In this document: positions 1,674 to 37,567 of the stretch, piece after piece
Numbering within the stretch: position 1 is the stretch's first letter
Layout of the letters: each line of letters opens with the position of its first letter
IMG/VR virus record: IMGVR_UViG_3300031367_000001
Location: 1-44,231 of that record
Length of the DNA: 44,231 bases
Source: a virus
Reading direction: 5' to 3' (one strand)
The notes under the pieces: model-generated
Told to the model about the DNA's origin: nothing
Seen by the model: the letters and a program-made list of their open reading frames with translations, nothing else
The model's database searches: none
Made by a program: the position numbers and the translations under genes

Positions 1674-2401
1674 GACCGTTCAACATATTCGACGCATTCG
1701 GCGCTATTCGCGGCGTAGGATCAGGGGCTCGCTGGCCTTCCGATGCCTTCGTTATGACTGTGGCGACGAGCTCCGACGGACAGACGTTCGAATTCGAGAT
1801 GAATGCCATGGGCGGGACGATTGACTGCACGATTGATTGGGGCGATGGAACGAGTTCAGCTATCACTGCGTACAACGACACGAATTTGTCCCATGCCTAC
1901 GCCACTGCCGGCAATCATCAGATAATACTGCGCGGCAGTTGGACTGCACCGTATTTCAATGGTAGCGCCGACGCACTGCTTGTTACATCTATCGATCAAT
2001 GGGGGAGCAATTATGGAACTCTCTGGCGGCGATCTCTGAATGGATGTAGAAATCTAATAACAATTGATGGCAATTCATTTGGAGCTGGCGTCACCGATAT
2101 GAGCCAGATGTTTTACCGCTGCAACTCGTTTCCTGGCTCGCTGACTATGATTGACGGGTGGGATATGTCCGACGTGACTGATCTCACAGATTTTCTTAGC
2201 CTCTGCGTCGGTTTTTCCCAGACAAATTATGACGCTCTTTTGATTTCGCTCCAGTCGAAAGGACTTGCCGGCGACCTGAATTCAGGCCTGACTTTCGGCG
2301 GTCCGCCTTGTCATTACACGGCTGGCGGCGATGCAGAAGCGGCGCACGATTATCTCACGGGAACCCTTGGCTGGACGATTACTGATGGGGGGCCAGCATG
2401 A
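1670..2401 (+). CDS. PKD/BspA-like (DUF285-type) tail-associated protein
   Basis: A 243-residue protein. Residues about 38-88 form a PKD-like Ig fold with the hallmark DWGDGT (56-61) and HxYxxxGxH (75-83). Residues 141-154 (VTDMSQMFYRCNSF) and 165-179 (DMSDVTDLTDFLSLC) are the short repeats of the DUF285/BspA leucine-rich surface protein family. The C-terminus HYTAGG..AAHDYLTGTLGWTITDGG is common to phage-borne members. Such modules bind surface polymers or proteins, so a receptor-binding accessory role is inferred. It starts at an ATGA overlap with the adaptor gene and ends in an ATGA overlap with 2398. Confidence 0.75.
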   Translation: MRPFNIFDAFGAIRGVGSGARWPSDAFVMTVATSSDGQTFEFEMNAMGGTIDCTIDWGDGTSSAITAYNDTNLSHAYATAGNHQIILRGSWTAPYFNGSADALLVTSIDQWGSNYGTLWRRSLNGCRNLITIDGNSFGAGVTDMSQMFYRCNSFPGSLTMIDGWDMSDVTDLTDFLSLCVGFSQTNYDALLISLQSKGLAGDLNSGLTFGGPPCHYTAGGDAEAAHDYLTGTLGWTITDGGPA

Positions 2402-2496
2402 CCATTCAGACAATCTCTCTTCTCGCGACATTCATCGCGGGAACGGTCTGCGGTGCCTTCTGTCTGTTTGTATTCAACATCTGGAGGCAGAGATAG
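2398..2496 (+). CDS. 32-residue single-pass membrane peptide
   Basis: A very short gene with start-stop overlaps on both sides: ATGA with the BspA-like gene, and TAG overlapping GTG of the next gene. The peptide has polar ends and one hydrophobic segment (about residues 5-27) with two Cys residues and a basic end (WRQR). Its length fits one transmembrane helix. The tight coupling on both sides supports translation. The function is unknown; a small accessory lysis or membrane protein is possible. Confidence 0.55.
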   Translation: MTIQTISLLATFIAGTVCGAFCLFVFNIWRQR

Positions 2497-2765
2497 TGGC
2501 AACGGTGAACATTGACCTTTCGGCGGACTGGGTGAAGATCGCCGAAGATACGGATGATCCGTTTTGTGCCCAGTGCATCACAAACTGCATTGCGGAGGTT
2601 GCGGCAGTAGCGACGGATACTGATCCGACAGTCTCCGGGATGCGATTGATTGGCAATGACGGTCCGAATCCGATGGCCGTGAGCCGCAACACGCACCCAA
2701 CCGGCTTCGTCTTCGCCAAGATTCTCTCCGGACCCGCGGCAGCGGTCATGGTGGTAAATACCTAA
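2496..2765 (+). CDS. Putative small virion protein
   Basis: An 89-residue protein; the GTG at 2496 is chosen because it overlaps the preceding TAG and has GGAGG about 9 nt upstream (2482-2486). The sequence is a compact beta-rich protein (INIDLSADWVKIAED, then Cys-x2-Cys near residue 27, ending with FAKILSGPAAAVMVVNT). Small proteins with this 'W..IAE...PF..Q' start and hydrophobic end are found in phage head-fibre and tail regions. Stop overlaps the next ATG (TAATG). Confidence 0.65.
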   Translation: MATVNIDLSADWVKIAEDTDDPFCAQCITNCIAEVAAVATDTDPTVSGMRLIGNDGPNPMAVSRNTHPTGFVFAKILSGPAAAVMVVNT

Positions 2766-3103
2766 TGAGCCAGATCACAATCAATACTCACCGCACCTTC
2801 GTCACGGACGTGGAATTCACCGCCGAGGACGAGCATGGCGCACCGCTGAAGGCCAAGATCCGCGCGAAATATCGCATCCTGCCGCAAAACGAAATTGATC
2901 AGTTCGCGGCCGAAAACCCAACGGCCAAGGTGCTCGATCCGATCCTCGTGAGCGTGGAAGGGCTGAGCCTTCTCGACATCGACGGGAAGCCGCTAAGCGG
3001 CGAGGACTTCCTGTTCGCGCTGAAACAGGACCCAGTTATCAGCTCGGCGCTTTGGTTGAGATACCGGGAGGAAGTCAGAAAAAAGTCTGGCCTGGCGGCC
3101 TAG
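2765..3103 (+). CDS. Tail assembly chaperone, short product (gpG-like)
   Basis: A 112-residue protein before the tape measure gene, the usual place of the siphovirus tail assembly chaperone. It contains beta strands (DVEFTAEDEHGAPLKAKIRAKYR) and a C-terminal helix. Near its end the zero-frame codons are AGA AAA AAG TCT, giving the canonical -1 slippery heptamer A AAA AAG at 3079-3085. Ribosomes that do not shift end at TAG 3101-3103. In lambda the corresponding protein coats or guides the tape measure during tail assembly. Confidence 0.82.
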   Translation: MSQITINTHRTFVTDVEFTAEDEHGAPLKAKIRAKYRILPQNEIDQFAAENPTAKVLDPILVSVEGLSLLDIDGKPLSGEDFLFALKQDPVISSALWLRYREEVRKKSGLAA

Positions 3104-3474
3104 TCGAATTTGCTAGCTGGCTGCATGGCGAGCGCGAGATCGAGGACGACGATCTGGTCGAGGAGCTGAAGGCGTGGGGCGTCGATCCCAAGACGATTGC
3201 GGAGTACCGCGCACAGCAGCAGCGTGCGGCCGAGGAGGCAGATTTCGATGTCCTCGAGGAGCTGTGGCCGCCAATTGAGTTTTACCTGCGGTGTCGGACC
3301 CAGTGGGTCCATGCCGGTATGGATGGCGTCAAAGTTGGGCTCAATTATGGCGGGGTGCGGCTTGTCATGGAGACCTACGGCTATGATGCCAGGGCCTTCG
3401 AGGGGCTGCAGATCATTGAGGAAGCCGCTCTGAACGCCATGCATAAGGCGCGCATGGAGAATGCGACGACATGA
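2765..3474 (+). CDS. Tail assembly chaperone, -1 frameshift product (gpGT-like)
   Basis: Slippage by -1 at A AAA AAG (3079-3085) joins the first 107 codons to the frame ending at 3474, giving about 236 residues. The extension has no sensible start with a ribosome site of its own. It carries the pattern AWGVDPKTIAEYR ... FDVLEELWPPIEFYLRCRTQW ... GLNYGGVRLVM typical of DUF1799, the T-domain partner of such chaperones. The stop overlaps the tape-measure ATG (ATGA). Frameshift efficiency is unknown. Confidence 0.82.
3079..3085 (+). promoter_or_regulatory. -1 programmed ribosomal frameshift site, A AAA AAG
   Basis: The heptamer A AAA AAG is in the correct phase (A | AAA | AAG in the gpG frame), the same sequence as the E. 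coli dnaX slip site. The gpG frame stops 16-18 nt further on, while the -1 frame stays open for 129 codons and shows a DUF1799-like protein. Confidence 0.85.
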
Positions 3475-6400
3475 GCATCATAGAAGAAGGCTTGCGAATC
3501 ATTTTCTCCGGCCGCGATCAGGGCCTCACCGGCATGGTGAGGGGCGTCTCCGACCGTCTCACCGACCTGAACCACAGCGCCAGCGCGGCGACCAGCGGCA
3601 TCAAGTCATTCGCGGAAGCGCTTGGTGTCGCAGTTGGTGGCGGATCGATCGTTGCCGTATTTAAGGCCATCGTCAACCAGTTGGACGATATGGCCGATTC
3701 CGCGCAGAAGGTTGGGCTGACGGTCGAGCAGCTCTCGGCACTTGCGCATGCCGCTGATTCATCCGGTGTGAGCTTTGAAAATCTGCAGAACGGTCTGCAG
3801 AAATTCGCGAAACGGCTGGCTGAGAGTGCCACCGGAACGGACAAAGCGTCTAAGCTCATGCGCGCGCTTGGGATTGATGCAAGTCAGGGCACCCTGCCGG
3901 CCTTTGAGCGGCTTGCTGACGTTTTCGCGTCGACTGAGGATGGTGCGGCCAAAGTAGCAGCGTCTGCAGAGCTCATAGGCCAACGTATGGGGCCGGAGCT
4001 GATTCCGCTGTTGAATAGCGGCAGTGATGGCATAAGGCGCATGATGGAGGAGGCCAAGCGGCTGGGCCTCGTCATGACAACAGATGCATCGGATGCGGCC
4101 GGAGACTTCAACGATGGCATCCAGCTCCTGAACGACAGCATACATGGACTCCTCATTGAAGGGCTTGGACCGACAATTAAGTTTCTTGGTCAGTTATCGA
4201 GTGCTTTCCTCACTGCGGCGCATGAAGGTACTGGCCTGGCCGGTGCAGTCACAAATCTGGAGGCTTCGTTCTATGGACTAAATATTGAGCTGACCAAAAA
4301 TGATGCGCTCAATTTGATAGGAAAAAAGATCGGAACAATCAAGACGCAGCTCGCTGAGATTCAGGGGACCAGCGGTGGCGCATTGCAACAAGGAGCAAAT
4401 TGGATTGAACGCACCTTGGCACCCACGGCAGTCGGCCAAAAAGTCGACGAGCTGAAAGGCAAATTGAAGGACCTGGAGGTTGAGCGGCAAAAGGTCCTCG
4501 AACAATACGGACATTCTGGCGATGCTGTAGAAAGGTATGAGAAACGAATCGCTGATCTGAAGAAATTATTGGGTGAACTCGGAACGACACATCATAAAAC
4601 AGGCGCAGCCGTAAAGGACCACACCAAGGAGATCAAGAATCAGGAAAAGGCCACCCTGGCGCTTGCCGCCCGCTACGGCAGCAGCGTGGCCCAGCAGGAG
4701 GTCTATCGGCAAAAACTCCAAGAAGTCACGGAGGCCATGCAGGCGCAAGGGGCCACCGCAGAAGAGTTGGCCGCTGCCCAGAAGAAGGTTTATCAAGAGG
4801 TCTTCGGCGACAAGGCGACCAAGCAAGTAGACGCCTGGGCCACGATCACCAAGCAGGCGCTGAAGCGCGTTGATGACAGCTTCGTGACCATGTGGAAATC
4901 GGTGATCTCGGGCACGGGCAACGCGATGGACTCGCTCAAGAGCCTGGTAACCGACACCCTCGCGGAGATCGCTCACGAGCTGATCACAAAGAAGCTGGTG
5001 GTCTCCATCGGGGCAGTCCTTGGCGTGAATAGCGCCGGGGCGGCAGCGTGGACTGTAGGCACAACGGGCGGCTCTGGCAGTTCTCTCGGTCTACTTTCCA
5101 GCTTCGGAAACATGCTGACGGGCACCTCGATCGGCGGAGGGATCGCGAATACCCTGTTCGACGCCGGTAGCCTTGCAGGCATCGCGCCGGACACCCTGGC
5201 CAATGGATTGAGCGGCATCGCCGGGACATCGAATCTAGCGTTTGGCATCAGCGGCATCGCCGGCGCCCTCGTCGGGCACTTCCTCGCGCATAATCAAGCC
5301 GGTCAAATCGGCTCGGCCATCGGCGGTATAGCGGGCACTCTCGGCGGGTCAGCCCTTAGCGGAACCATCGCCGCGGCGGCGACATCCGCTGCCGGGGCTG
5401 CTGCCGGGGCTGCTGCCGGGTCAGTCGTTCCCGTGGTCGGCACGATCATCGGCGCGGCCATCGGGGCGCTTGCGGGAAATGCCTTTGGAGGCGTGAAAAT
5501 ACCCGAGGTGACTGTTGCCGCGCGGGGCGGGGGCATCGTGCCGGTCAGCGGTCATAACCTCTCTCAGCAGCAGTATACGCAGGCCATCAATACGATCGAC
5601 GCCGTAAATCAACTGGTCACGGGTCTGGTAGGAGCCTTCGGACCAGAAGGGCAGAAGGCCGTCGCCGCGGTGAATCTCTCCGGGACCAAGAGCGGCCCGG
5701 GGGATTTAAACGCCGAGGCCAAAAACTTGCTGAAGACCGACATCCTGGCCGCAGCCGGGGCGGGCGACCAGATGGCTCAGTATGTCGCCGACCAGCTCGG
5801 GGATTTCAATGACTCGCTCGAGGACACAGCCAACGAGATCGGGAAGGCCGTCGCTGAGTTTCAGGCACTGCAGCAGATCGTCACGAACTTCGACGCGCTC
5901 GGAGTCTCACTGGGCGCCACCGATGAGGCCGCGATCGCGGCGGCCAAGCACATGGCGGAAGCCGCCGGGGGCGTGAGCCAGCTCGCCAGCGCCCAGGCAT
6001 ATTATGCGCAGAATGTGCTTTCAGACACTGACCGGCTGACCGCCGCTTATCAGAACGTCCAGAAGCCGATTTCCGACTTCAACAGCGCGATGGGGCTTTC
6101 TGGTGATTCCACGATCACCACCACGAATCAACTCAAGGCGTTCGTCGACGGTCTCGACCTGACCACATCAGCCGGGCAGGACGCATATGTCGCGGCCCTT
6201 CAGGCGGCTCCGGCCATCGTCATGGCAAGCGATGCACTCGGAAAGCTAACCGCCGCTGGCAAGGAGCTGGATGGCCTCGCCGACACCTTCCGCGCGCTCG
6301 GCGAGAGCATCGGCAGCACCAGCGATGCGGCCCGCAAAGCGGTATCCGACCTAGCGGATCTTGCCGGTGGAACCAGCAAGCTCTCTTCCCTGCAAAGTAG

Positions 6401-28226: not shown

Positions 28227-28670
28227 ATGAGTCGCGCAGTAGCCGAACGCCTAAGCCAGGCCAATGCCAGGGCAAACAAGGACAAGCACGAGGTGCCGAT
28301 GGCCATCCAGGTGCGTGCCGCCGGATTGCCTGAGCCTGAGCGGGACTACCGCTTTGGGGCGATTGCCGCTGGGGGCGTGGGCAAGGGCATGCGTGCGCGC
28401 CTGGCCAAGGCCAAGCTCCGGGACTGGCGTTTCGATTTCGCCTGGCCGGAGCATCACGTAGCGCTAGAGATCGAAGGCGCAGCAGGCCGCGGGCGCCACA
28501 CGACAGCGAAGGGCTACAAGGAAGATTGCCGCAAGTACAACGAGGGCACGCGGCTCGGCTGGGCTGTCTATCGCGTCACCGGTGATATGGTTCACAGCGG
28601 CGAGGCTCTTAATCTGCTGATCCATGTCTTCCCGCCTAACATCTCAATTCAGGAGGCCACTCACGAATGA
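28227..28670 (+). CDS. PD-(D/E)XK / Vsr-like nuclease
   Basis: A 147-residue protein with GAGGAG before the ATG. The core WRFDFAWPEHHVALEIEG (67-84) provides Asp70 and Glu81/Glu83, followed by GRHTTAKGYKEDCRKYNEGT (88-107, quoted in part) with His91 and Lys103, and 'GWAVYRVTGDMV'. This is the phage family of small restriction-like or Holliday-junction-type nucleases found near packaging genes. It may resolve recombination branches before packaging. Confidence 0.75.
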   Translation: MSRAVAERLSQANARANKDKHEVPMAIQVRAAGLPEPERDYRFGAIAAGGVGKGMRARLAKAKLRDWRFDFAWPEHHVALEIEGAAGRGRHTTAKGYKEDCRKYNEGTRLGWAVYRVTGDMVHSGEALNLLIHVFPPNISIQEATHE

Positions 28671-29002
28671 AATATACGCGCGGTAGCGTATCCGAGTCGA
28701 TGCTGTCGTTAGAGCGCTTAGGCATATACAGTCAGTGGGATTTGCTTGCGCTGGCTGAAAAAGCCATGCCCCCGGATGAGCAACCGCCGGAATCAGAAGA
28801 ATGGTGCGCGGATATCGACTTTGTTGTCGATGGCTGGATTGTGCGCATCTTCTACGACGCTGGTGAGCTTGACTACATCGCAGAGTTCATCGGACCAGAC
28901 GGAACAATCTTTGACTTTTGGGAGTGGCCGGATGGGCATCCATGGAAGCGTGACTTGATAAATTGGAGTGGTGTTGGAGACGTGGAGCGCTGGCGAGCAT
29001 GA
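28667..29002 (+). CDS. Hypothetical protein, 111 residues
   Basis: An acidic protein (PPDEQPPESEEWCADIDFVV, then VRIFYDAGELDYIAEFIGPDG, then FDFWEWPDGHPWKRDLINWSG). ATGA overlaps join it to both neighbours. The fold looks beta-rich with Trp-rich loops. No family is recognised, but similar proteins occur with nucleases near late genes. Confidence 0.65.
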   Translation: MKYTRGSVSESMLSLERLGIYSQWDLLALAEKAMPPDEQPPESEEWCADIDFVVDGWIVRIFYDAGELDYIAEFIGPDGTIFDFWEWPDGHPWKRDLINWSGVGDVERWRA

Positions 29003-29535
29003 GCGCTACCATTGAGATTCAAGGGATGAGGGAAGTTCAGGATTTATTTCATTCCTTTCCGCAGCGGGCCAAAACGATAATTAGCCGATCGCTTAACGAC
29101 GCGGCAAAACACACCGTAACTGACGCAAGCCGGCGAGTGCGTCAGACATGGAACCTCAGCGTCAAAGAAGCAAAAGCGGGTTACATCGTTGTCAAGTCGA
29201 GTCCACAGACTCTCGAGTCGCGCGTGATCGTAAAGGGTAATCCAGTCCCGTTGATGGCATTCAAGCCTCGTCAAACGAAGAAAGGAATCAGCGTAACGAT
29301 AAAGAAAGGCCATCGTACAATGCTGAAATCGGCGTTTATCGCGCAGATGCCGTCATGGCATATAGGGGTATTTAAGCGCGTTGGCCGCAGAAGGTTGCCG
29401 ATTCGTGAGTACAACGTGGTCAGCTATCCAGTGATGGTGCGTGGACAGTGGGAAGAGATAAAGATCGAAGCGCGGCGCTATCTTTTGACTAGATTACAGC
29501 AGCAGATTGCGAGAGCGTTGGAGCGGAGACGATGA
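28999..29535 (+). CDS. gpZ-like minor tail protein
   Basis: A 178-residue protein from ATG 28999 (ATGA overlap). The sequence SLNDAAKHTVTDASRRVRQTWNLSVKEAKAGYIV (helix then basic) and 'VKGNPVPLMAFKPRQTKKGISVTIKKGHR' matches the lambda Z / prophage minor tail protein Z family that completes the tail before joining to the head. In lambda it lies between head and tail genes; here it is upstream of the terminase genes. Confidence 0.75.
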   Translation: MSATIEIQGMREVQDLFHSFPQRAKTIISRSLNDAAKHTVTDASRRVRQTWNLSVKEAKAGYIVVKSSPQTLESRVIVKGNPVPLMAFKPRQTKKGISVTIKKGHRTMLKSAFIAQMPSWHIGVFKRVGRRRLPIREYNVVSYPVMVRGQWEEIKIEARRYLLTRLQQQIARALERRR

Positions 29536-29633
29536 GGATACCTGTCGGGTCCTTCTGCCGCCAGAACCACGGGCCCCAAGCTGAGGCAAGGTTCTCCGTT
29601 GTTTTTCTACCACACATAGGCGTTTGCTAGTCC
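29532..29633 (+). other. Gap before small terminase; candidate cos/pac region
   Basis: About 100 nt between gpZ-like and terminase genes. A 32-codon frame (29532-29630) overlaps the gpZ stop (ATGA), but its composition is not convincing and it has no ribosome site. A GC-rich stretch with CGGGTCC...GGGCCCC lies near 29553-29577. In phages with Nu1/GpA terminases the packaging site is usually immediately upstream of the small subunit, so I mark this as a candidate only. Confidence 0.35.
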
Positions 29634-30128
29634 ATGTCGCTTGAAGTCGTCACGTCGGATCATGTCCCTCCAGAGCGGACTGGCAACAAAGCCGATTTGG
29701 CCAACTGGTTTGGCGTTGCGCTGACGACGGTAGACCAGTGGCTTCGGCGTGGATGTCCTTATCTGCAGCGCGGTGAACGCGGAAAGCAATGGAAATTCGA
29801 TTTTTTGGCCGTTTCCAAATGGCGCTATGGCGCTGAGGAAAAGGACGAAGACGATCCCGAGAAAATGCCGGCAAAGGAGCGCCTGGACTGGTATCGAGGA
29901 ACTCGCGAACGCACAAGGCATCTGCAGGAATGTGGTGAACTGCTACTCGCAACCGACTACGAGCGCGAGCTGTCAAACGCGGCCAAGATCGTTGGAACGG
30001 TGCTAGAAAGCCTACCGGACCGTGCTGAGAGAGATGCCGGTGCATCTCCCGAGGTTGTTGAGCTGATTCAGCACGTCGTTGATCAGCTACGTGAAGAGCT
30101 ATACCGCAGGTTGTCGAAAAGAGCCTGA
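29634..30128 (+). CDS. Terminase small subunit (Nu1-like)
   Basis: A 164-residue protein. Residues 18-60 (ADLANWFGVALTTVDQWLRR, then GCPYLQRGERGKQWKFDFLAV) are the winged HTH of Nu1-type DNA packaging proteins. The C-terminal half is helical (RERTRHLQECGELLLATDYERE) and would bind the large subunit. It recognises the packaging site and starts packaging. The stop overlaps the large-subunit ATG by one base. Confidence 0.87.
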   Translation: MSLEVVTSDHVPPERTGNKADLANWFGVALTTVDQWLRRGCPYLQRGERGKQWKFDFLAVSKWRYGAEEKDEDDPEKMPAKERLDWYRGTRERTRHLQECGELLLATDYERELSNAAKIVGTVLESLPDRAERDAGASPEVVELIQHVVDQLREELYRRLSKRA

Positions 30129-32152
30129 TGTACGCTGATGCCGCTGCCATTACGTCCGACGTAGCAGACATTCTGCGTCCGCCTCGACGAGTATCAGTAT
30201 CAGACTGCGCACGTGAGGTGGTGCGCATTGAATCGCCAGGCGGATATTCCGGACCATGGGACCCAGATATCACGCCATATATGGTCGAGCCGATGGACCT
30301 GCTAAAAAGTCGGCGCCATGAGGCCATTGTCTTCGTTTCGCCGTCCAGGACCGGAAAAACTCAGGGATTGCTTGACGGATGGCTGGCTCATTGCGTCGTC
30401 GCTGACCCTGGAGATATTGGCCTATATTTTTCGACGCAAACGCTCGCATACGATTTTCGCAAGCGTCGCCTTGAGCGACTGCATCGCAACAGCGAGCAGC
30501 TTCATGCGAAGCTTTCGACACGCAAGCACGACACAACGATTGAGATGGTCATTTACCGGAATGGGATGATCCTCAATCTTGGTTGGCCGTCGTCATCCCA
30601 ACTTGCACAGCGGGATTTACGCTATGTCGCGATGTCTGATTACGACTCGTTTCCCGACGACATCGGAGGAGAGGGAGAGCCGTTTGGCCTAGCAAAAAAG
30701 CGCGTCCAGGTCGCAATGAGCGCTGGCATGGCGCTGGTAGAATCTAGCCCAAAGCGAGCAATCATCACGAATCAATGGCTGCCTGACGGCAGGCACGCGG
30801 CGCCACCGGTGCATGGCGGAATTCTCCCTCTGTATAATCGCGGAGACCGTCGCCGCTGGTATTGGATATGCATTGATGGCTGCGGGGATTGCTTCGAGGC
30901 GCCGGCGATGCCATTTTATGAGGCAATGCAGGATATTCACGATGCCGCGGCTACTGCGCATGTTGCATGTCCGCATTGCGGCTTGATTTATAGACCGCAT
31001 GATAAACGTAGACTCAATGCGTCAGGAGCATGGCATGCAGAATCGCTAAATGGCGAGCATCACCGTACTATTGCCTCATTTTGGTTGCTCGGTTGCGCCG
31101 CGGCGTTCCAGCCCTGGGAATCGATCGTGGCCAATTACCTGCTCGCTTATCGCGAGATGGAATCAACCGGCGATGAGTCTGCATTACGCCAGACCATCAA
31201 TACGGATCAAGGACTGCCTTATATGCCGCGTGCGATGGCGGAATCGCGCGGAGCAGAATCTATTGAGGCGCGCCTTGAGGCGTCGGAGCGTTATTTCGTT
31301 CCGGATGGTATACGATTCCTGCTTGCTGACGTTGACGTGCATGCAAATCGATTCGAAGTGCTAGTGCTTGGCTTTGGCGTTGGTGCTGAGCGCTGGCTGG
31401 TTGACCGTTACGCGATCAGGGAAACTAAAGACGGAACTCCGCTGCAGCCGGCTGTCATGCGCGAGCACTGGGAAACGTTGACGGAGCGCGTCGTCAACGG
31501 AACATACAAGCTGTCAGACGGACGCGAGATGCGCATATTCCGGGTTGGAGTTGATTCCGGCGGCTATGCACATCGCAAACGCAAAGCCGACTCAACTGCA
31601 CGCGCATATGACTGGTGGCGCCATCTAAAGCGAATAGGTCTTGCTCATCGGGTGAGACTAATCAAGGGAGGGGCTTCCAAGTCTGCGCCGCCGGTGCGAG
31701 AGACATACCCTGACAGTCGCGAGAGATCAGATAGAAAAGCTGGAAGTCGTGGAGACGTTCCGGTGCTTATTCTGAACACAAATAGACTGAAGGATCTTGT
31801 TTTTTCCGACTTGGCGCGCGAGGTTCCTGGCCCCGGCTATATCCACTTGCCGAAATGGATGTCCAAGAAACATAGGGAAGAAATGACAGCCGAGCAACGC
31901 ACAGCAAAAGGATGGGAGCAGATCGGAAATCGGCGTAACGAGACTTGGGATCTTTTCTGCTATGCAACTGCATTATGGCTTTATGTGCGCGGAGATAAGA
32001 TCAGATGGGATGCGCCGCCGCCATGGGCGATGAAGATCGACAAAAACAGCGAGGTGATAAGTAGCGAGCAACGGCGTGAATTAAAGATCAGCAAACAGAC
32101 GATAACGCAAGAACCAACGCGCAAAGGAAGAATCAGGGGGCTTCTGCGGTGA
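30128..32152 (+). CDS. Terminase large subunit (GpA-like)
   Basis: A 674-residue ATPase/nuclease of the GpA family. Walker A-like SPSRTGKTQ (71-79), Walker B region YVAMSDYDSFPD (166-177), Cys248-Cys252-Cys255 and Cys281-Cys284 as a zinc-finger-like insert, and a nuclease domain with FLLADVDVHANRFE (397-410; Asp401/Asp403). The C-terminus WDLFCYATALWLY is typical. It pumps DNA into the prohead and makes the cut. Confidence 0.92.
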   Translation: MYADAAAITSDVADILRPPRRVSVSDCAREVVRIESPGGYSGPWDPDITPYMVEPMDLLKSRRHEAIVFVSPSRTGKTQGLLDGWLAHCVVADPGDIGLYFSTQTLAYDFRKRRLERLHRNSEQLHAKLSTRKHDTTIEMVIYRNGMILNLGWPSSSQLAQRDLRYVAMSDYDSFPDDIGGEGEPFGLAKKRVQVAMSAGMALVESSPKRAIITNQWLPDGRHAAPPVHGGILPLYNRGDRRRWYWICIDGCGDCFEAPAMPFYEAMQDIHDAAATAHVACPHCGLIYRPHDKRRLNASGAWHAESLNGEHHRTIASFWLLGCAAAFQPWESIVANYLLAYREMESTGDESALRQTINTDQGLPYMPRAMAESRGAESIEARLEASERYFVPDGIRFLLADVDVHANRFEVLVLGFGVGAERWLVDRYAIRETKDGTPLQPAVMREHWETLTERVVNGTYKLSDGREMRIFRVGVDSGGYAHRKRKADSTARAYDWWRHLKRIGLAHRVRLIKGGASKSAPPVRETYPDSRERSDRKAGSRGDVPVLILNTNRLKDLVFSDLAREVPGPGYIHLPKWMSKKHREEMTAEQRTAKGWEQIGNRRNETWDLFCYATALWLYVRGDKIRWDAPPPWAMKIDKNSEVISSEQRRELKISKQTITQEPTRKGRIRGLLR

Positions 32153-32406
32153 GTCTCGACTGGCTACAGATCGAGTCAGAATGGGCACGCGACCTGCAGC
32201 AGGTCCTCAGCCCGCAGTTGGCGGAGTTGATGGCGCATCATCTCGCCCAGGGTATGCGCGATCGTTTCGGCGGTCAGCGACACTACATCCCGGCGCGGGC
32301 CATCGATCGCGACCGAGTCCGCGGAGGATTCAACGGCCACAATCTCGATCAGCTATCGGCCGCCTATGGGCTTTCGAAGCGGCATATTCGGAGGCTAGTC
32401 CGTTGA
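32149..32406 (+). CDS. Mor-like HTH protein
   Basis: An 85-residue protein from GTG 32149 (GTGA overlap). The C-terminal half, 'DRVRGGFNGHNLDQLSAAYG' and 'LSKRHIRRLVR', matches the Mor transcription activator HTH (in Mu, Mor activates middle genes). It lies inside a head operon, so it might be a late regulator or have been recruited as a connector. A regulatory role here is not demonstrated. Confidence 0.72.
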   Translation: MSLDWLQIESEWARDLQQVLSPQLAELMAHHLAQGMRDRFGGQRHYIPARAIDRDRVRGGFNGHNLDQLSAAYGLSKRHIRRLVR

Positions 32407-33266
32407 ACTGGAAACGCCGTTGGGACCCATTCATCTGGCAGGACGGTGACGAATGCCACCTTCTTTGTCTTGCGACTCGCCATGGAGCAGGGAATCGCGG
32501 GCAAATCTGGTGGCAGGACGACAACGTCATCCTGCACGCCATCGGTCCAAGCTTTGATGCTCTGACCGAGCACGATGTGGTCACGCCGCCGAAGGGATTT
32601 ATCTGGACGGCGCCGAGCCGGTTTCGTTGCCGCGGTCGAGATTATCTTCTGGCCGGCATCAACTACGATGCCGGACGCCCGAACCAGCGCCTATGGATGG
32701 CGCCTCTGGACGATCCCACGGAGGAGGTCGGTCAGCTCCCGACCGCGGGCCAAGAGATGGGCCGCCCGGGGAGCTTCGCCTGGCGCGACGCGAGCGTGAT
32801 GCGGGTCGCTGAGCAGGAATGGCTGCTGTTCGTGACGACGGGAGGCTTCCGCTGGGGCGGTGCGCCAAACGTCATCCTCTTCCAGGCCGAGGACCCTCTC
32901 GGCCGATGGTGGTCGCGTGGGCCGGTGATAGACCCGACTCTTGCGGTTCTGTTCGCGGAGCTGGAGCGGCCGCAAATCATGCGCATGGATGGTCGCTGGA
33001 TCTGCTGGTGGTCTGTCTGGCCTAACCGACACTTTTTCCGCGCGAAAAGCACCGTCCGGACTCATATCGCGATGTCCACCTTCGATGAGCCGCTATTTTC
33101 GCGTCCGATCGCGCAGCTGAACGGGGCCTACGGCCTACAGATGCATGCCGGCTCCTGGTGCACCGGATGGTACTGGACCGACATCGACCAGGCCGAGGGT
33201 GATGTCCGTATCTGGCGGGATGATGCCCTGTTGGGGCACATTCGGAAATGTATGGAGTCCGCCTGA
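32403..33266 (+). CDS. Five-bladed beta-propeller glycosidase-like protein (GH32/GH68 clan motifs)
   Basis: A 287-residue protein; the TTG at 32403 overlaps the Mor-like TGA and gives the correct start. Blade 1 begins with RWDPFIWQDGDECHLLCLA (Asp8 as nucleophile-like), then SFAWRDASVM (Arg128-Asp129; the RDP-type transition-state pair) and LERPQIMRMDGRWICWWSVW (Glu188-Arg-Pro; acid/base). The D ... RD ... E order and the ERP block are those of the GH-J clan (levansucrase, invertase) and GH43/GH62-like propellers. Repeated WDG.W/DGRW edges suggest propeller blades. Fructan or other sugar hydrolysis is inferred. It is the fourth gene of the packaging/head operon. Confidence 0.62.
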   Translation: MNWKRRWDPFIWQDGDECHLLCLATRHGAGNRGQIWWQDDNVILHAIGPSFDALTEHDVVTPPKGFIWTAPSRFRCRGRDYLLAGINYDAGRPNQRLWMAPLDDPTEEVGQLPTAGQEMGRPGSFAWRDASVMRVAEQEWLLFVTTGGFRWGGAPNVILFQAEDPLGRWWSRGPVIDPTLAVLFAELERPQIMRMDGRWICWWSVWPNRHFFRAKSTVRTHIAMSTFDEPLFSRPIAQLNGAYGLQMHAGSWCTGWYWTDIDQAEGDVRIWRDDALLGHIRKCMESA

Positions 33267-33514
33267 TGTCTTACGGCAAGGCTGATGCGCTTGTCCCGCG
33301 CGATTTTACAAATTGCATGACGGTGCGTGAGCTAAAGGAAATGATCAAAGATTGGCCTGAAACGAATAATTTCGGGGAGGATTGTGAGGTTTGGGTACAG
33401 ACGGGGTTTGCGTCTAGCAGCCCGGTCATAAGAGCCTGTGCGCTGAACCTTCGCGAAGACGATGATGGAAGTCTGAGTGCAGATTTCCTGCTCGGTAGTG
33501 GGCACCGAGCATAA
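33266..33514 (+). CDS. Hypothetical protein, 82 residues
   Basis: The ATG at 33266 overlaps the glycosidase-like stop (TGATG); the longer frame is inside that gene. It contains a helical part (CMTVRELKEMIKDWPETN) and a strand part (CEVWVQTGFASSSPVIRACALNL). Similar short proteins in phages have 'G...VW..TG....SP' but no known role. It may be a partner or accessory protein of the preceding gene. Confidence 0.6.
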   Translation: MSYGKADALVPRDFTNCMTVRELKEMIKDWPETNNFGEDCEVWVQTGFASSSPVIRACALNLREDDDGSLSADFLLGSGHRA

Positions 33515-33569: not shown

Positions 33570-33797
33570 ATGACCCTCGCGGAAGCGACCGCCTACCTCT
33601 CGACGCTCGAGGCCGCTATGCTCAGCGGCGAGCTCTCCGTCCGCTTGGCTGACGGTCGAGCGATCACTTACCAGTCCCTGCCCGAGATGGAACGGACGGC
33701 GGCCAGGCTGCGTCGTGACATCGCCCGGGCGAACGGCACGCCCTCGACCATGACCGTCCGCTGGAATCCCAGCGCAACCAGCGGGACGAGCTATTGA
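33570..33797 (+). CDS. gpW-like head-tail connector
   Basis: A 75-residue protein, 'LAEATAYLSTLEAAMLSGEL' then a beta-hairpin 'SVRLADGRAITYQSLPEMER' and a helix 'TAARLRRDIAR', the alpha-beta-beta-alpha order of lambda gpW family. gpW binds the head after packaging and is usually encoded right before the portal, as here. The stop overlaps the portal start by 4 bp (TTGA). Confidence 0.78.
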   Translation: MTLAEATAYLSTLEAAMLSGELSVRLADGRAITYQSLPEMERTAARLRRDIARANGTPSTMTVRWNPSATSGTSY

Positions 33798-35353
33798 AGC
33801 CCGAAGTTATCTCTGGCGCGGGCGACGCGGCGGACGAGCTCCAGCGCAACCAGTTGGACCGGCTATTGAAGCCCGATCGCGTCCTGCCGCTCAACGTACG
33901 CCAACTCCCGACCGCAAGCTACCAGGCGGGCGATTCCAGCCAATATCACAAGAACCCGGCACCGGTGGGGTCCGGCGACCGCTCCGTTGCGACTGCCTAC
34001 TATCGGCTGCGCGATTGGTCGAGGTGGCTTGACGAGAACCTCGACCTCGTCACAGGCGCCTTCGATAAGTTGGTCAACTTCATCGTCGGCGGCGGCATCA
34101 CAATCGAGCCGACGGTCCGCGACCGCAAGGGCCGGCTCCTGCCAAAAGTCAATGAGCAGATCCGTCGCGCCATCGTCGATGAGAGCTATCCGGATTGTTG
34201 GAGCCGTGACTGCAACGTCACCGGTGAATACACCCGGGGGGAACAGGAGCGGATTGCCTGCCGGTCCTGGTTGCGGGATGGCGAGATCCTAGGCCGCAAG
34301 GTGCCGCGCCAGATCGCCCCCGGCCGCATCCCATACCAGGTCCAACTGATCGAGGCGGACTACCTGGCATTCGAGATGCTGAAACCCCTGCGCGACGGGA
34401 CGGCCATCATCCATGGGGTCGAGAAGGACGAGTGGGGCCGCCCGATCGCGTATCACATCTACCACCAGAACCCGGTAATCGTCTCGGACTTCCGCTGGGC
34501 GACAGGGCTTGATACGACGCCCGTATCCGCCGAGGAGATCAGTCACCTGAAGTTTATCCGCCGCGCCAACCAGACCCGCGGGGTTCCGATCGACCATTCG
34601 ACGATCTTGCGTCTGGATGACGTCGCCGAATATGAGGACGCTCACCGGGCCGGGGCCAGGGCGGCCGCCCAGCTTCTCGGCTGGATCAAGCGTTCGGCGG
34701 ACACCTTCGGCCTAAGCGGCGATGGCAGTCCTTATTCGGCGACCGACGACAAGCGCAAATGGGACCTGGAGGACGCGACGTTCCTGTCGGACCTGCTGCC
34801 CGGCGAGGATGCTGGCTTCTACAAGCCGGAGACGCCGAACCCGGACGCGACCCCTTTCCTGGACGATCAGCTGCGCCGCGCTGCATCCGGCTTCGGCCTC
34901 GGCTACTCGACCTTCGCTGGAAAATACGACAAGGCGTTCTCGGCGGCCCGTCAGGAGCAGTCAGAGAACTGGCCGAACATCGAGCAATTGCGGGGCCAAT
35001 TCATCTCGGATTTCGTGCGGCCTGTCGAATATGAGCCTGCTCTGCGCGCCGCTATCCTCCTGGGCCGCGTGCGAATCCCGCGCGAGGCCGACCCGGACAC
35101 CATCCTTACCGCCGACATCAGCGGGCCGCCACGTCCGACCATCGACGACCTGAAGCAGGTCCAGGCAGATCGCGAGATGAAAGACGCAAGATTCGACTCG
35201 CGCGTTGGCCGCATCCGCGAGCGCGGGCGGGACCCGACGCGGGTGGATGCCGAGATCGAGAATGATCCGCTGGCGGCGCAGCCGGCGTCCGCGGCAGCTC
35301 CGAATCCGCCGCCGCCAAATGGTCCTGCCCCAGATCAGCCGAGTACGCAATAA
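33794..35353 (+). CDS. Portal protein (lambda B-like)
   Basis: A 519-residue protein from TTG 33794. Residues about 60-95 (YYRLRDWSRWLDENLDLVTGA, then FDKLVNFIVGGGI) and later 'SWLRDGEILGRKVPRQIA' and 'IPYQVQLIEADYLAFEM' are landmarks of the lambda B-type portal (Phage_portal_2). The region 'SGFGLGYSTFAGKYDKAFSAARQEQSENW' is the conserved stem/wing segment. It forms the DNA entry ring. The C-terminus is Pro/Ala rich. Confidence 0.9.
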   Translation: MKPEVISGAGDAADELQRNQLDRLLKPDRVLPLNVRQLPTASYQAGDSSQYHKNPAPVGSGDRSVATAYYRLRDWSRWLDENLDLVTGAFDKLVNFIVGGGITIEPTVRDRKGRLLPKVNEQIRRAIVDESYPDCWSRDCNVTGEYTRGEQERIACRSWLRDGEILGRKVPRQIAPGRIPYQVQLIEADYLAFEMLKPLRDGTAIIHGVEKDEWGRPIAYHIYHQNPVIVSDFRWATGLDTTPVSAEEISHLKFIRRANQTRGVPIDHSTILRLDDVAEYEDAHRAGARAAAQLLGWIKRSADTFGLSGDGSPYSATDDKRKWDLEDATFLSDLLPGEDAGFYKPETPNPDATPFLDDQLRRAASGFGLGYSTFAGKYDKAFSAARQEQSENWPNIEQLRGQFISDFVRPVEYEPALRAAILLGRVRIPREADPDTILTADISGPPRPTIDDLKQVQADREMKDARFDSRVGRIRERGRDPTRVDAEIENDPLAAQPASAAAPNPPPPNGPAPDQPSTQ

Positions 35354-35356
35354 GCC

Positions 35357-37567
35357 ATGACCACGCGACGCAAATATGAGATTCGAGCCCAGGGCGACGG
35401 CGAGGCCGAGCTCACGATCTATGGCGCGATCGGCTCGAACTGGTGGGACGAGGAATCCACCGATGCCAAGTCAGTCGTAGCGTGGTTGAAGGACAACGCC
35501 CAGCGCCCGGTGCTAGTGCGCATCAACAGCACCGGCGGCTCGGTGTCCGATGCGCTTGCGATCTACAACGCACTGCGGACGCATAAGGCGGGCGTGCGCA
35601 CCCGCATCGACGGGATCGCCTTCTCGGCCGGTGGCTACATCGCCATGGCCGGAAGCGAGGTAGCGATGCCGGAGAATGCGCTGCTTATGATCCATGCCCC
35701 TTGGGGGCTTGCCGATGGAAACGCTGCCGAGCTCCGGAAGCTCGCCGATCAGCTCGATAAGTGGGCTGCCGCCATGCAGTCTGGATACCGCCGCGGCGGG
35801 AAGGTGGATGCAGCCGACGTGGAGCAGTGGCTAACGGATGGCGAGGACCACTTCTTCACGGCGGACGAAGCCATCGCGTCCGGACTCGCCGATCTGACCT
35901 ATCCGGCCATCGACATGGCTGCGGCCACGCGCGGCATGAATGTGTATCTCCCTCAGATTCTGAAACCGGCGGCCTCCGCCAAACCCCTGGAGAATGAAAT
36001 GCCTGAAAACACTGGCACTCCGGCGGCCCCTGAGCAGCCTCAGGCCGCCAATCCGAATCAGCAGCCCAACCAAGAGCCAGGCCGCGTCGACGTCCTCGGC
36101 GCCGTGGCAAAGCTGAATGCTGACACCCGCCGCGGGGTCGAGCAGGGCGCCACTGCCGAGCGCAAGCGCCAGCGCGAGATCCGCGACCTATTCGCCGAGC
36201 AGCCGAACGACCGGCGCGAATTCCAGACCGTCTTGAACCAGTGCCTGGACAACCCGGCTTGCGACATCAATATGGCCAGACAGGCGCTGATCGACCTCTA
36301 CAGCTCCGGGATCGTGCCGATCATTGATCCCATCTCCCAGGAGCAGGACCAGCACGGCGGCCCCTGGGCGCATACCCAGGCCCCTACCGCCCGCCTCGGC
36401 GCCAAGCAGCAGACCGCTGTGCGGCCGCAGCCCCGCTTCCGTCCCGGAATGGACGCAGGCGAGAAGTTCCGCGAGGGGGCCATTGCTGCGCTATCCGTGC
36501 GCACGGGCCTGGTGACGGAAAAGGAGTTTGTCCGCGCGCAGAATGACAACCCGTTCATGTCCTATTCGCTGGTAGACCTCTGCAAGGAGCAGCTACACGC
36601 TCTTGGGATGTCCGTTGGCGGTTCCAGGGAGTCGGTGGTGAAGCGGGCCATCTATGCCTCGGCCCCCGGCTATGGCTCCGACCATCTTCCCTACATCCTT
36701 GAGAACGTGGCCGAGAAGGCGGTCATGGCCGGCTACGAGGCGGCGGAGGAGACCTGGCAGGACTGGGTCAAGATCGGCACCTTATCGGACTATCGCGAGG
36801 CGAGCCGCATCAATCTGTCGCTGTTCAATGCCCTGGATACGATGCTGGAGTTCCAGCCGTTTACGAGCGGGAAGTTCAAGGACGTGAAAGAGACGATTCA
36901 AGCCTATCTCCGCGGCAAGCGATTCTCGATCACGCTGCAGGCGATGGTCAACGACGACACCGGCATGCTCACTGAGGTGCCGATGCAGTTCGGCGAGGCG
37001 GCCAACCGGACCGTTGGCGATGCAGTGGCCGCGTTGCTCACCAGCGGCACCACCGCGACCATGAATGAGGATTCTGTTGCCCTATTCGACGCCTCGGATC
37101 ACACCAACTTTGTGGCATCCGGGAGCGGTGCGGCGCCATCGACCACCACGCTGAATACGGCATATGGGGCGATGGCTGTTCAGACCGATCCGAACAGCCA
37201 GCCGCTCGGAATTCGTCCGCGTTACATCATCCACCCGGCGGCCCTGCGAATGACCGTGCAGGCCCTGCTGAGCTCCGTCGAAATTCGCAACACAACGGGG
37301 AGCACGATCTATCCGACCAACAACCCGGTCACCTCGCTCAATCTGGTGCCAATCGAGGAATACCGTCTCGATGGCAACAATACCTCTGGCTGGTACCTGG
37401 CTGCGGCCCGCCGCACCATCGAGGTGGCCTTCGTCGGCGGACAGAGCACTCCGACCGTGGACCGGGTGGCGACCAGCGACGTGCCAGGAATCTCCTGGGA
37501 TATCAGCCTCCCGTTCGGTGCCGCGGTGCTGGATTGGCGGACTCTCTATTACAACTATGGCGCATAA
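35357..37567 (+). CDS. ClpP-like prohead protease fused to major capsid protein
   Basis: A 736-residue fusion. Residues 1-190 are a ClpP-like serine protease: INSTGGSVSDALAIYNAL (57-73), IAFSAGGYIAMAG with Ser90, and MIHAPWG with His113. Residues about 215-340 are Gln/Pro/Ala-rich scaffold. Residues about 360-736 are a capsid protein (SRINLSLFNALDTMLEFQPF, then RFSITLQAMVNDD, then WDISLPFGAAVLDWRTLYYN). The joined form is known from related phages. An internal in-frame ATG at 35999 with GGAG 6 nt upstream could make scaffold-capsid without protease. Confidence 0.88.
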   Translation: MTTRRKYEIRAQGDGEAELTIYGAIGSNWWDEESTDAKSVVAWLKDNAQRPVLVRINSTGGSVSDALAIYNALRTHKAGVRTRIDGIAFSAGGYIAMAGSEVAMPENALLMIHAPWGLADGNAAELRKLADQLDKWAAAMQSGYRRGGKVDAADVEQWLTDGEDHFFTADEAIASGLADLTYPAIDMAAATRGMNVYLPQILKPAASAKPLENEMPENTGTPAAPEQPQAANPNQQPNQEPGRVDVLGAVAKLNADTRRGVEQGATAERKRQREIRDLFAEQPNDRREFQTVLNQCLDNPACDINMARQALIDLYSSGIVPIIDPISQEQDQHGGPWAHTQAPTARLGAKQQTAVRPQPRFRPGMDAGEKFREGAIAALSVRTGLVTEKEFVRAQNDNPFMSYSLVDLCKEQLHALGMSVGGSRESVVKRAIYASAPGYGSDHLPYILENVAEKAVMAGYEAAEETWQDWVKIGTLSDYREASRINLSLFNALDTMLEFQPFTSGKFKDVKETIQAYLRGKRFSITLQAMVNDDTGMLTEVPMQFGEAANRTVGDAVAALLTSGTTATMNEDSVALFDASDHTNFVASGSGAAPSTTTLNTAYGAMAVQTDPNSQPLGIRPRYIIHPAALRMTVQALLSSVEIRNTTGSTIYPTNNPVTSLNLVPIEEYRLDGNNTSGWYLAAARRTIEVAFVGGQSTPTVDRVATSDVPGISWDISLPFGAAVLDWRTLYYNYGA
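35989..36001 (+). promoter_or_regulatory. Internal ribosome site and nested start in the protease-capsid gene
   Basis: GGAG (35989-35992) is followed 6 nt later by ATG 35999, in frame with the fusion gene (codon 215). The product would be about 522 residues and start at the scaffold part. Lambda Nu3 uses the same nested-start logic inside its protease gene. Confidence 0.6.

Follow-up and report, generated by a model that had tools for sequence, protein, structure and literature searches.

The window analysed here comprises 44,231 nucleotides (positions 1–44,231) of virus record IMGVR_UViG_3300031367_000001, which belongs to a lambda-like siphovirus. The gene under study, referred to as the propeller gene after the fold predicted for its product, lies in a head gene region with the local order terminase small subunit, terminase large subunit (terL), Mor-like gene, propeller gene, small gene, gpW-like adaptor, portal, and protease-capsid fusion. 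The relevant features are:

29634–30128: terminase small subunit
30128–32152, plus strand: terminase large subunit (GpA type), upstream of the propeller gene (PF20454/PF05876, phrog_15)
32149–32406, plus strand: Mor-like transcription activator, 85 aa (PF08765, 5e-10; phrog_532, 1.7e-9)
32385–32402, plus strand: GGAGG ribosome-binding site, 8 nt upstream of the propeller TTG (read from the sequence)
32403–33266, plus strand: predicted diverged clan GH-J-type beta-propeller glycosidase gene, 287 aa, TTG start, putative triad D8, D129 and E188
33266–33514, plus strand: gene for an 82 aa protein, joined to the propeller gene by a TGATG overlap (PHROG 36159; remote relatives in RaK2-like jumbo phages)
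33570–33797, plus strand: head-tail adaptor (gpW/Ad1-like), downstream of the propeller gene (phrog_2545, 2.9e-12)
33794–35353, plus strand: portal protein (lambda family), downstream of the propeller gene (PF05136, 6.4e-70)

The original prediction had placed the gene between terminase and portal, and this location was confirmed, with terL upstream and the gpW-like adaptor and the portal downstream. Translation of the ORF at 32403–33266 (MNWKRRWDPF...WRDA...AELERPQI) also returned the predicted 287 residues with D8, R128-D129, and E188 all in place. The GTG start of the Mor-like gene overlaps the terL stop, the Mor-like stop overlaps the propeller TTG start, and the propeller stop (TGA, 33264–33266) overlaps the ATG at 33266 of the small gene (TGATG). 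The start-stop coupling proposed for both sides of the gene is thereby confirmed with one correction, namely that the start of the next gene lies at 33266; this ATG is the better start and yields 82 aa, compared with 88 aa for the ORF from 33248. No signal peptide was found at the propeller N-terminus (MNWKRRWDPF). The good ribosome-binding site, the overlaps with both neighbours, and strong purifying selection (see below) show that the ORF is a real gene. The 82 aa protein shares 40–43% identity with hypothetical proteins of RaK2-like Klebsiella jumbo phages. Farther upstream, at 28667–29002, the window encodes a DUF7693-family protein (PF24745, 3.1e-6), which precedes the neck gene and is present in the relative phage as well.

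This relative phage, IMGVR_UViG_3300031256_000003, contains the sole relative of the propeller gene that was found. It occupies the equivalent position, encodes a protein with 90% identity over 287 residues, and has an ATG start where the window has TTG. Pattern scans of viral contigs, with the protein, the alignment, the portal, the capsid, the ERP motif, GH68, and compact enzymes of GH32/68 type as queries, recovered only this one relative, and zero relatives of the propeller protein were detected in the genome contigs searched. Between the two phages, dN was ~0.05 and dS ~0.6 (dN/dS ~0.09), close to the values of the capsid protein. Hence, we conclude that the propeller gene encodes a maintained protein. 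As the comparison comprises only two sequences that are 90% alike, long-term conservation of the active site cannot be used to judge activity.

Nucleotide homology between both phages begins at 32147, exactly at the Mor gene, and extends to 35316. The segment from Mor to portal and the capsid half of the protease-capsid fusion are ~85% identical in both phages; the terminase (window 28963–32152) and the protease half of the fusion (35357–35960) are replaced in the relative. The mosaic joints are sharp, and one lies within the fused gene. The relative furthermore carries 278 extra bases inserted precisely at the junction of the Mor stop with the propeller start. The limits of homology and this insertion site indicate that the block comprising the Mor, propeller, 82 aa, gpW, and portal genes was inherited as a module with gene-exact joints. 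The 278 extra bases of the relative phage contain an additional gene of 88 aa (4738–5004 of that phage); its joint is gene-exact, the overlaps are preserved, and its product had zero Pfam matches.

The propeller protein gave zero matches to Pfam (at E ≤ 10), NCBIfam, and PHROGs, and PDB sequence searches likewise returned zero matches. Small profiles were built from annotated plasmid-borne enzymes and compared by hhalign. For GH68, the profile consisted of nine plasmid sequences and Bacillus subtilis SacB, whose sequence, used as a query, returned a 100% match annotated as sacB: levansucrase. The propeller protein matched this profile with a score of 42.0 (P = 4.4e-5); in the alignment, RDA paired with the catalytic RDP, and ELERP with DEIERP. 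All 500 shuffled queries stayed below this score (maximum 27.1), and neither the reversed query nor any of 13 further proteins from the window scored above 20.5. Scores against the GH32 and GH43 profiles were 27.6 and 25.7, respectively. P values were 2.1e-7 for alphaproteobacterial GH68 with two Paracoccus enzymes, 5.2e-7 for compact GH32/68-type enzymes, and 1.5e-8 for the joint compact and alphaproteobacterial GH68 set (95.5% probability, score 64.0; shuffles: mean 15.8, sd 2.6, maximum 23.5). Independent of these profiles, a tblastn search of 72,556 plasmid records with the raw protein (E ≤ 10) yielded four hits, three of which were annotated as GH68/levansucrase and two of which were the Paracoccus enzymes; GH68 matches are present in only 76 of the plasmid records searched. 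Full-length identity to relatives other than the 90% one was 16–24%.

In the HMM comparison with clan GH-J and GH43 families that had been proposed as a check, the curated Pfam models were silent, and the GH68 and compact profiles built here matched. The profile comparison supports the predicted homology to five-bladed-propeller glycosidases with the triad in the right columns, and we consider it very probable that the protein is a propeller of GH-J type. AF2, run on the two-sequence alignment (90% alike), returned strand pairs only, with a pLDDT of 35. A MAFFT alignment of viral GH32 loci with the propeller protein was off by one blade and was not used for modelling. The PDB chains 8qkw_A and 8qj5_A are both labelled ‘Glutamate 5-kinase’, although a GH68-dominated profile matches them at 1e-129; this label looks wrong.

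Three segments of the gene encode the predicted catalytic residues:

32421–32426, plus strand: W7-D8, predicted catalytic nucleophile (SacB W85-D86); invariant column in alignments A4 and A9, N-terminal block test
32784–32789, plus strand: R128-D129, predicted transition-state stabiliser (SacB R246-D247, RDP motif); hhalign, alignments A4 and A9
32958–32972, plus strand: E186-L-E188-R-P190, predicted acid/base E188 (SacB E340, E342, R343); hhalign, alignments A4 and A9, residue map

In SacB, D86 is the nucleophile, D247 the stabiliser, and E342 the acid/base, while W85, R246, and E340 contact the sugar (PMC2277421). W7, R128, E186, and R189 of the propeller protein fall on further GH68 active-site columns, and W7, D8, R26, H27, W68, R128, D129, E188, and P190 are invariant in alignment A9. 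The N-terminal WD motif lies outside the segment aligned by hhalign and was therefore given a block test of its own, in which WDxxxxxDGDxxHL scored best exactly at W7; 6 of 2000 shuffles scored as high. The triad spacing is D-121-D-59-E, compared with 137–146/58–59 in compact GH32/68-type enzymes and 150–155/58–61 in alphaproteobacterial GH68; the shorter first interval is expected for a trimmed protein. The residue that follows RD is A130, where the RDP motif has proline. SacB R360 and Y411 are not clearly kept, with N208 and W256 at those columns, where the alignment is uncertain. A forced MAFFT alignment put the three acids in place for 5 of 200 shuffled sequences (2.5%), so this alignment alone is weak evidence and the triad assignment rests on the profile and block tests. 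Identity at GH68-invariant columns in MAFFT (10 of 25) was dropped as evidence, as shuffles reach 12. By position, the assignment of D8, D129, and E188 as nucleophile, transition-state stabiliser, and acid/base, respectively, is supported.

In a maximum-likelihood tree, the two phage proteins formed a long branch of their own (2.18 changes per column) within the GH32, GH68, and compact enzymes, split from GH43 at 100/100. Both GH68 (80/91) and the compact group (97/99) formed one side of a branch that did not include the phage protein. The defining features of the listed families were absent as well. PF02435 (GH68) had zero matches in this genome; WDPF, RDA, and ERP stand in place of the GH32 motifs WMNDPNG, RDP, and ECP, and PF00251 did not match; the 99 aa after E188 align with blades IV–V and do not form the GH32 C-terminal beta-sandwich; and PF04616 (GH43) was matched neither in the protein scans nor in the genome of the relative phage. 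We therefore regard the protein as an unassigned lineage that would work like a clan GH-J enzyme. The arginine before the second Asp and the ELERP at the acid/base are GH68-like and place the protein nearest to the GH68/compact GH32-68 side of the clan. It appears to be a very diverged but apparently intact relative, outside the listed families, of the levansucrase- and invertase-type enzymes that degrade or synthesise fructose polymers. A more far-reaching reading is that it represents a new GH-J family or branch, unusually small and part of a late head-gene cassette with the Mor-like regulator and the 82 aa partner, that acts on a non-levan furanoside such as a host surface furanosyl glycan; this we regard as doubtful.

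The compact GH32/68-type enzymes (Paracoccus WP_101754458.1 ‘levansucrase’, 329 aa, and its Paraburkholderia, Curtobacterium, and Streptomyces kin) share with the phage protein the size class, the lack of a signal peptide, a start just before WD, the DGDxxH block, the RH motif, RDP/RDA, LExP(Q), and the second spacing of 58–59. However, the phage protein is only ~20–24% identical to them, is ~40 aa shorter, falls outside their clade, has LERP where they have LEVP, and carries an alanine after RD. The compact enzyme genes reside in host sugar-uptake operons, in contrast to the propeller gene in its phage operon. The Paracoccus enzymes (329–331 aa, without signal peptides) are encoded inside sugar ABC operons and match GH32N best in Pfam, followed by GH43 and GH68; the Curtobacterium gene adjoins LacI and ABC genes. 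A compact enzyme in MT835605.1 (‘Bacteriophage sp.’) was rejected as a phage precedent, since it is flanked by a bacterial fructan operon. This record is a bacterial fructan-utilisation locus with a GH32 levanase, a binding protein, two permeases, the compact enzyme, and LacI. Since the compact enzymes occur with ABC importers, LacI, and in one case a GH32 levanase of extracellular type, they probably hydrolyse imported fructo-oligosaccharides inside the cell. The likeness to the GH68 levansucrases, inulosucrases, and invertases (PF02435; B. subtilis SacB) comprises the equivalents of W85, D86, R246, D247, E340, E342, and R343, the ELERP motif, and an LNG segment, whereas the phage protein has no clear equivalents of R360 and Y411 and lacks their long loops, secretion signal, and GGTxAP region at the C-terminus.

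In our best reading, which we consider fairly probable, the gene encodes a soluble, signal-less, late-made enzyme of the fructofuranosidase type, and with similar, slightly greater confidence we expect the protein to be catalytically active. It would be a minimal soluble five-bladed GH-J propeller without the GH32 C-terminal beta-sandwich and without a signal peptide. Homology suggests that D8 would attack a terminal beta-fructofuranosyl unit at its anomeric carbon, that E188 would protonate the leaving sugar, and that D129 together with R128 would steady the transition state; the fructosyl-enzyme would then be resolved by water or another sugar. The protein would be made from the terminase-portal transcript, coupled to the Mor-like regulator and the 82 aa protein, and because of this transcript it would be expected to accumulate late and to be freed at lysis. 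After lysis, it may trim the slime that surrounds host cells, where this contains fructan or other furanosides, in the manner of phiNIT1 LevP. We put forward this role upon lysis tentatively: the position in a presumably late operon makes it slightly preferable to sugar cleavage inside the cell, whereas the location of the nearest host enzymes in sugar-import operons suggests an intracellular job.

A possible, if less likely, alternative is that the protein serves as an auxiliary metabolic enzyme, which would cleave sucrose or imported fructo-oligosaccharides in the infected cell and thereby feed late virus production. Such a role would agree with the lack of a secretion signal in the phage protein and with the nearest compact enzymes, which are signal-less and encoded in sugar-ABC or fructan loci (Paracoccus, Curtobacterium, MT835605.1), but the phage protein lies outside the compact group in the tree, and a packaging/head operon is expected to be expressed late, when metabolic boosts help least. 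We consider it unlikely that the propeller has lost its catalytic activity and now serves to bind sugar or as a structural part, for instance on the capsid. When activity is lost, catalytic residues are usually the first to erode, and here the three acids are kept together with W7, R128, E186, and R189 under strong purifying selection, even though the very long branch of 2.18 changes per column, the unclear R360/Y411 equivalents, and the location among head genes would fit such a part. Still less likely is an enzyme carried by the virion as cargo or decoration that attacks capsule or slime at adsorption: the gene does lie between terminase and portal, but a gene in the gap between terL and portal is not necessarily structural, the propeller uses up the 287 aa, with no targeting or capsid-binding domain, and the analysis gave no sign that the protein associates with virions.

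The arabinanase option that the original prediction had included is not favoured, and we consider a GH43-type enzyme with arabinan or xylan as its substrate very improbable. Although the GH43 profile score of 25.7 exceeded most shuffles (2 of 500 reach it), this match is weak and register-shifted by blades, the GH68 and compact profiles score 42–64, the RD and ERP motifs are of the GH32/68 kind, and the tree splits the protein from GH43 at 100/100. Equally remote is a chance resemblance, in which an unrelated beta-rich protein has motifs that merely look right; the silent family databases and the AF2 pLDDT of 35 on two sequences would agree with it, but two separate regions match beyond shuffles and the unsolicited tblastn leads point to GH68.

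Clan GH-J enzymes have seldom been described from viruses. Among 4602 viral genomes surveyed in 2015, GH32 was listed in three Bacillus phages (PMC4595243), and our pattern scans of IMG/VR detected two GH32 genes and zero GH68 genes. The Bacillus phage GH32 enzymes, such as the endo-levanase LevP of phiNIT1, are signal-less propellers with an intact triad (D19, D150, E198; PMC4595243, PMC6966330); LevP cleaves host levan, and another phiNIT1 product, PghP, is set free by the burst (PMC6966330). These enzymes and the propeller protein are all phage-encoded, belong to one clan, and lack a signal peptide, but the former are ordinary GH32 with a beta-sandwich and close bacterial relatives, whereas the latter is sandwich-less and encoded in a lambda-like head operon. 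The propeller gene lies in an unusual location and represents a new small form of an enzyme kind already known from a few viruses. That a sandwich-less form of fewer than 300 residues was missed by all family libraries used suggests that diverged phage carbohydrate enzymes are under-counted. If active, the protein would be a compact enzyme for fructan cleavage, and it would offer a testable example of phage-encoded catalysis after lysis or within the cell. A GH32 gene in IMGVR_UViG_3300030503_000109 likewise encodes a clan GH-J enzyme in a phage contig, but this 519 aa protein is an ordinary GH32 with a signal-like N-terminus and canonical WINDPNG, RDP, and ECP motifs. This exolevanase-like gene (2381–3940) adjoins a tail-fibre-like gene and a chitinase/lysozyme-like gene.
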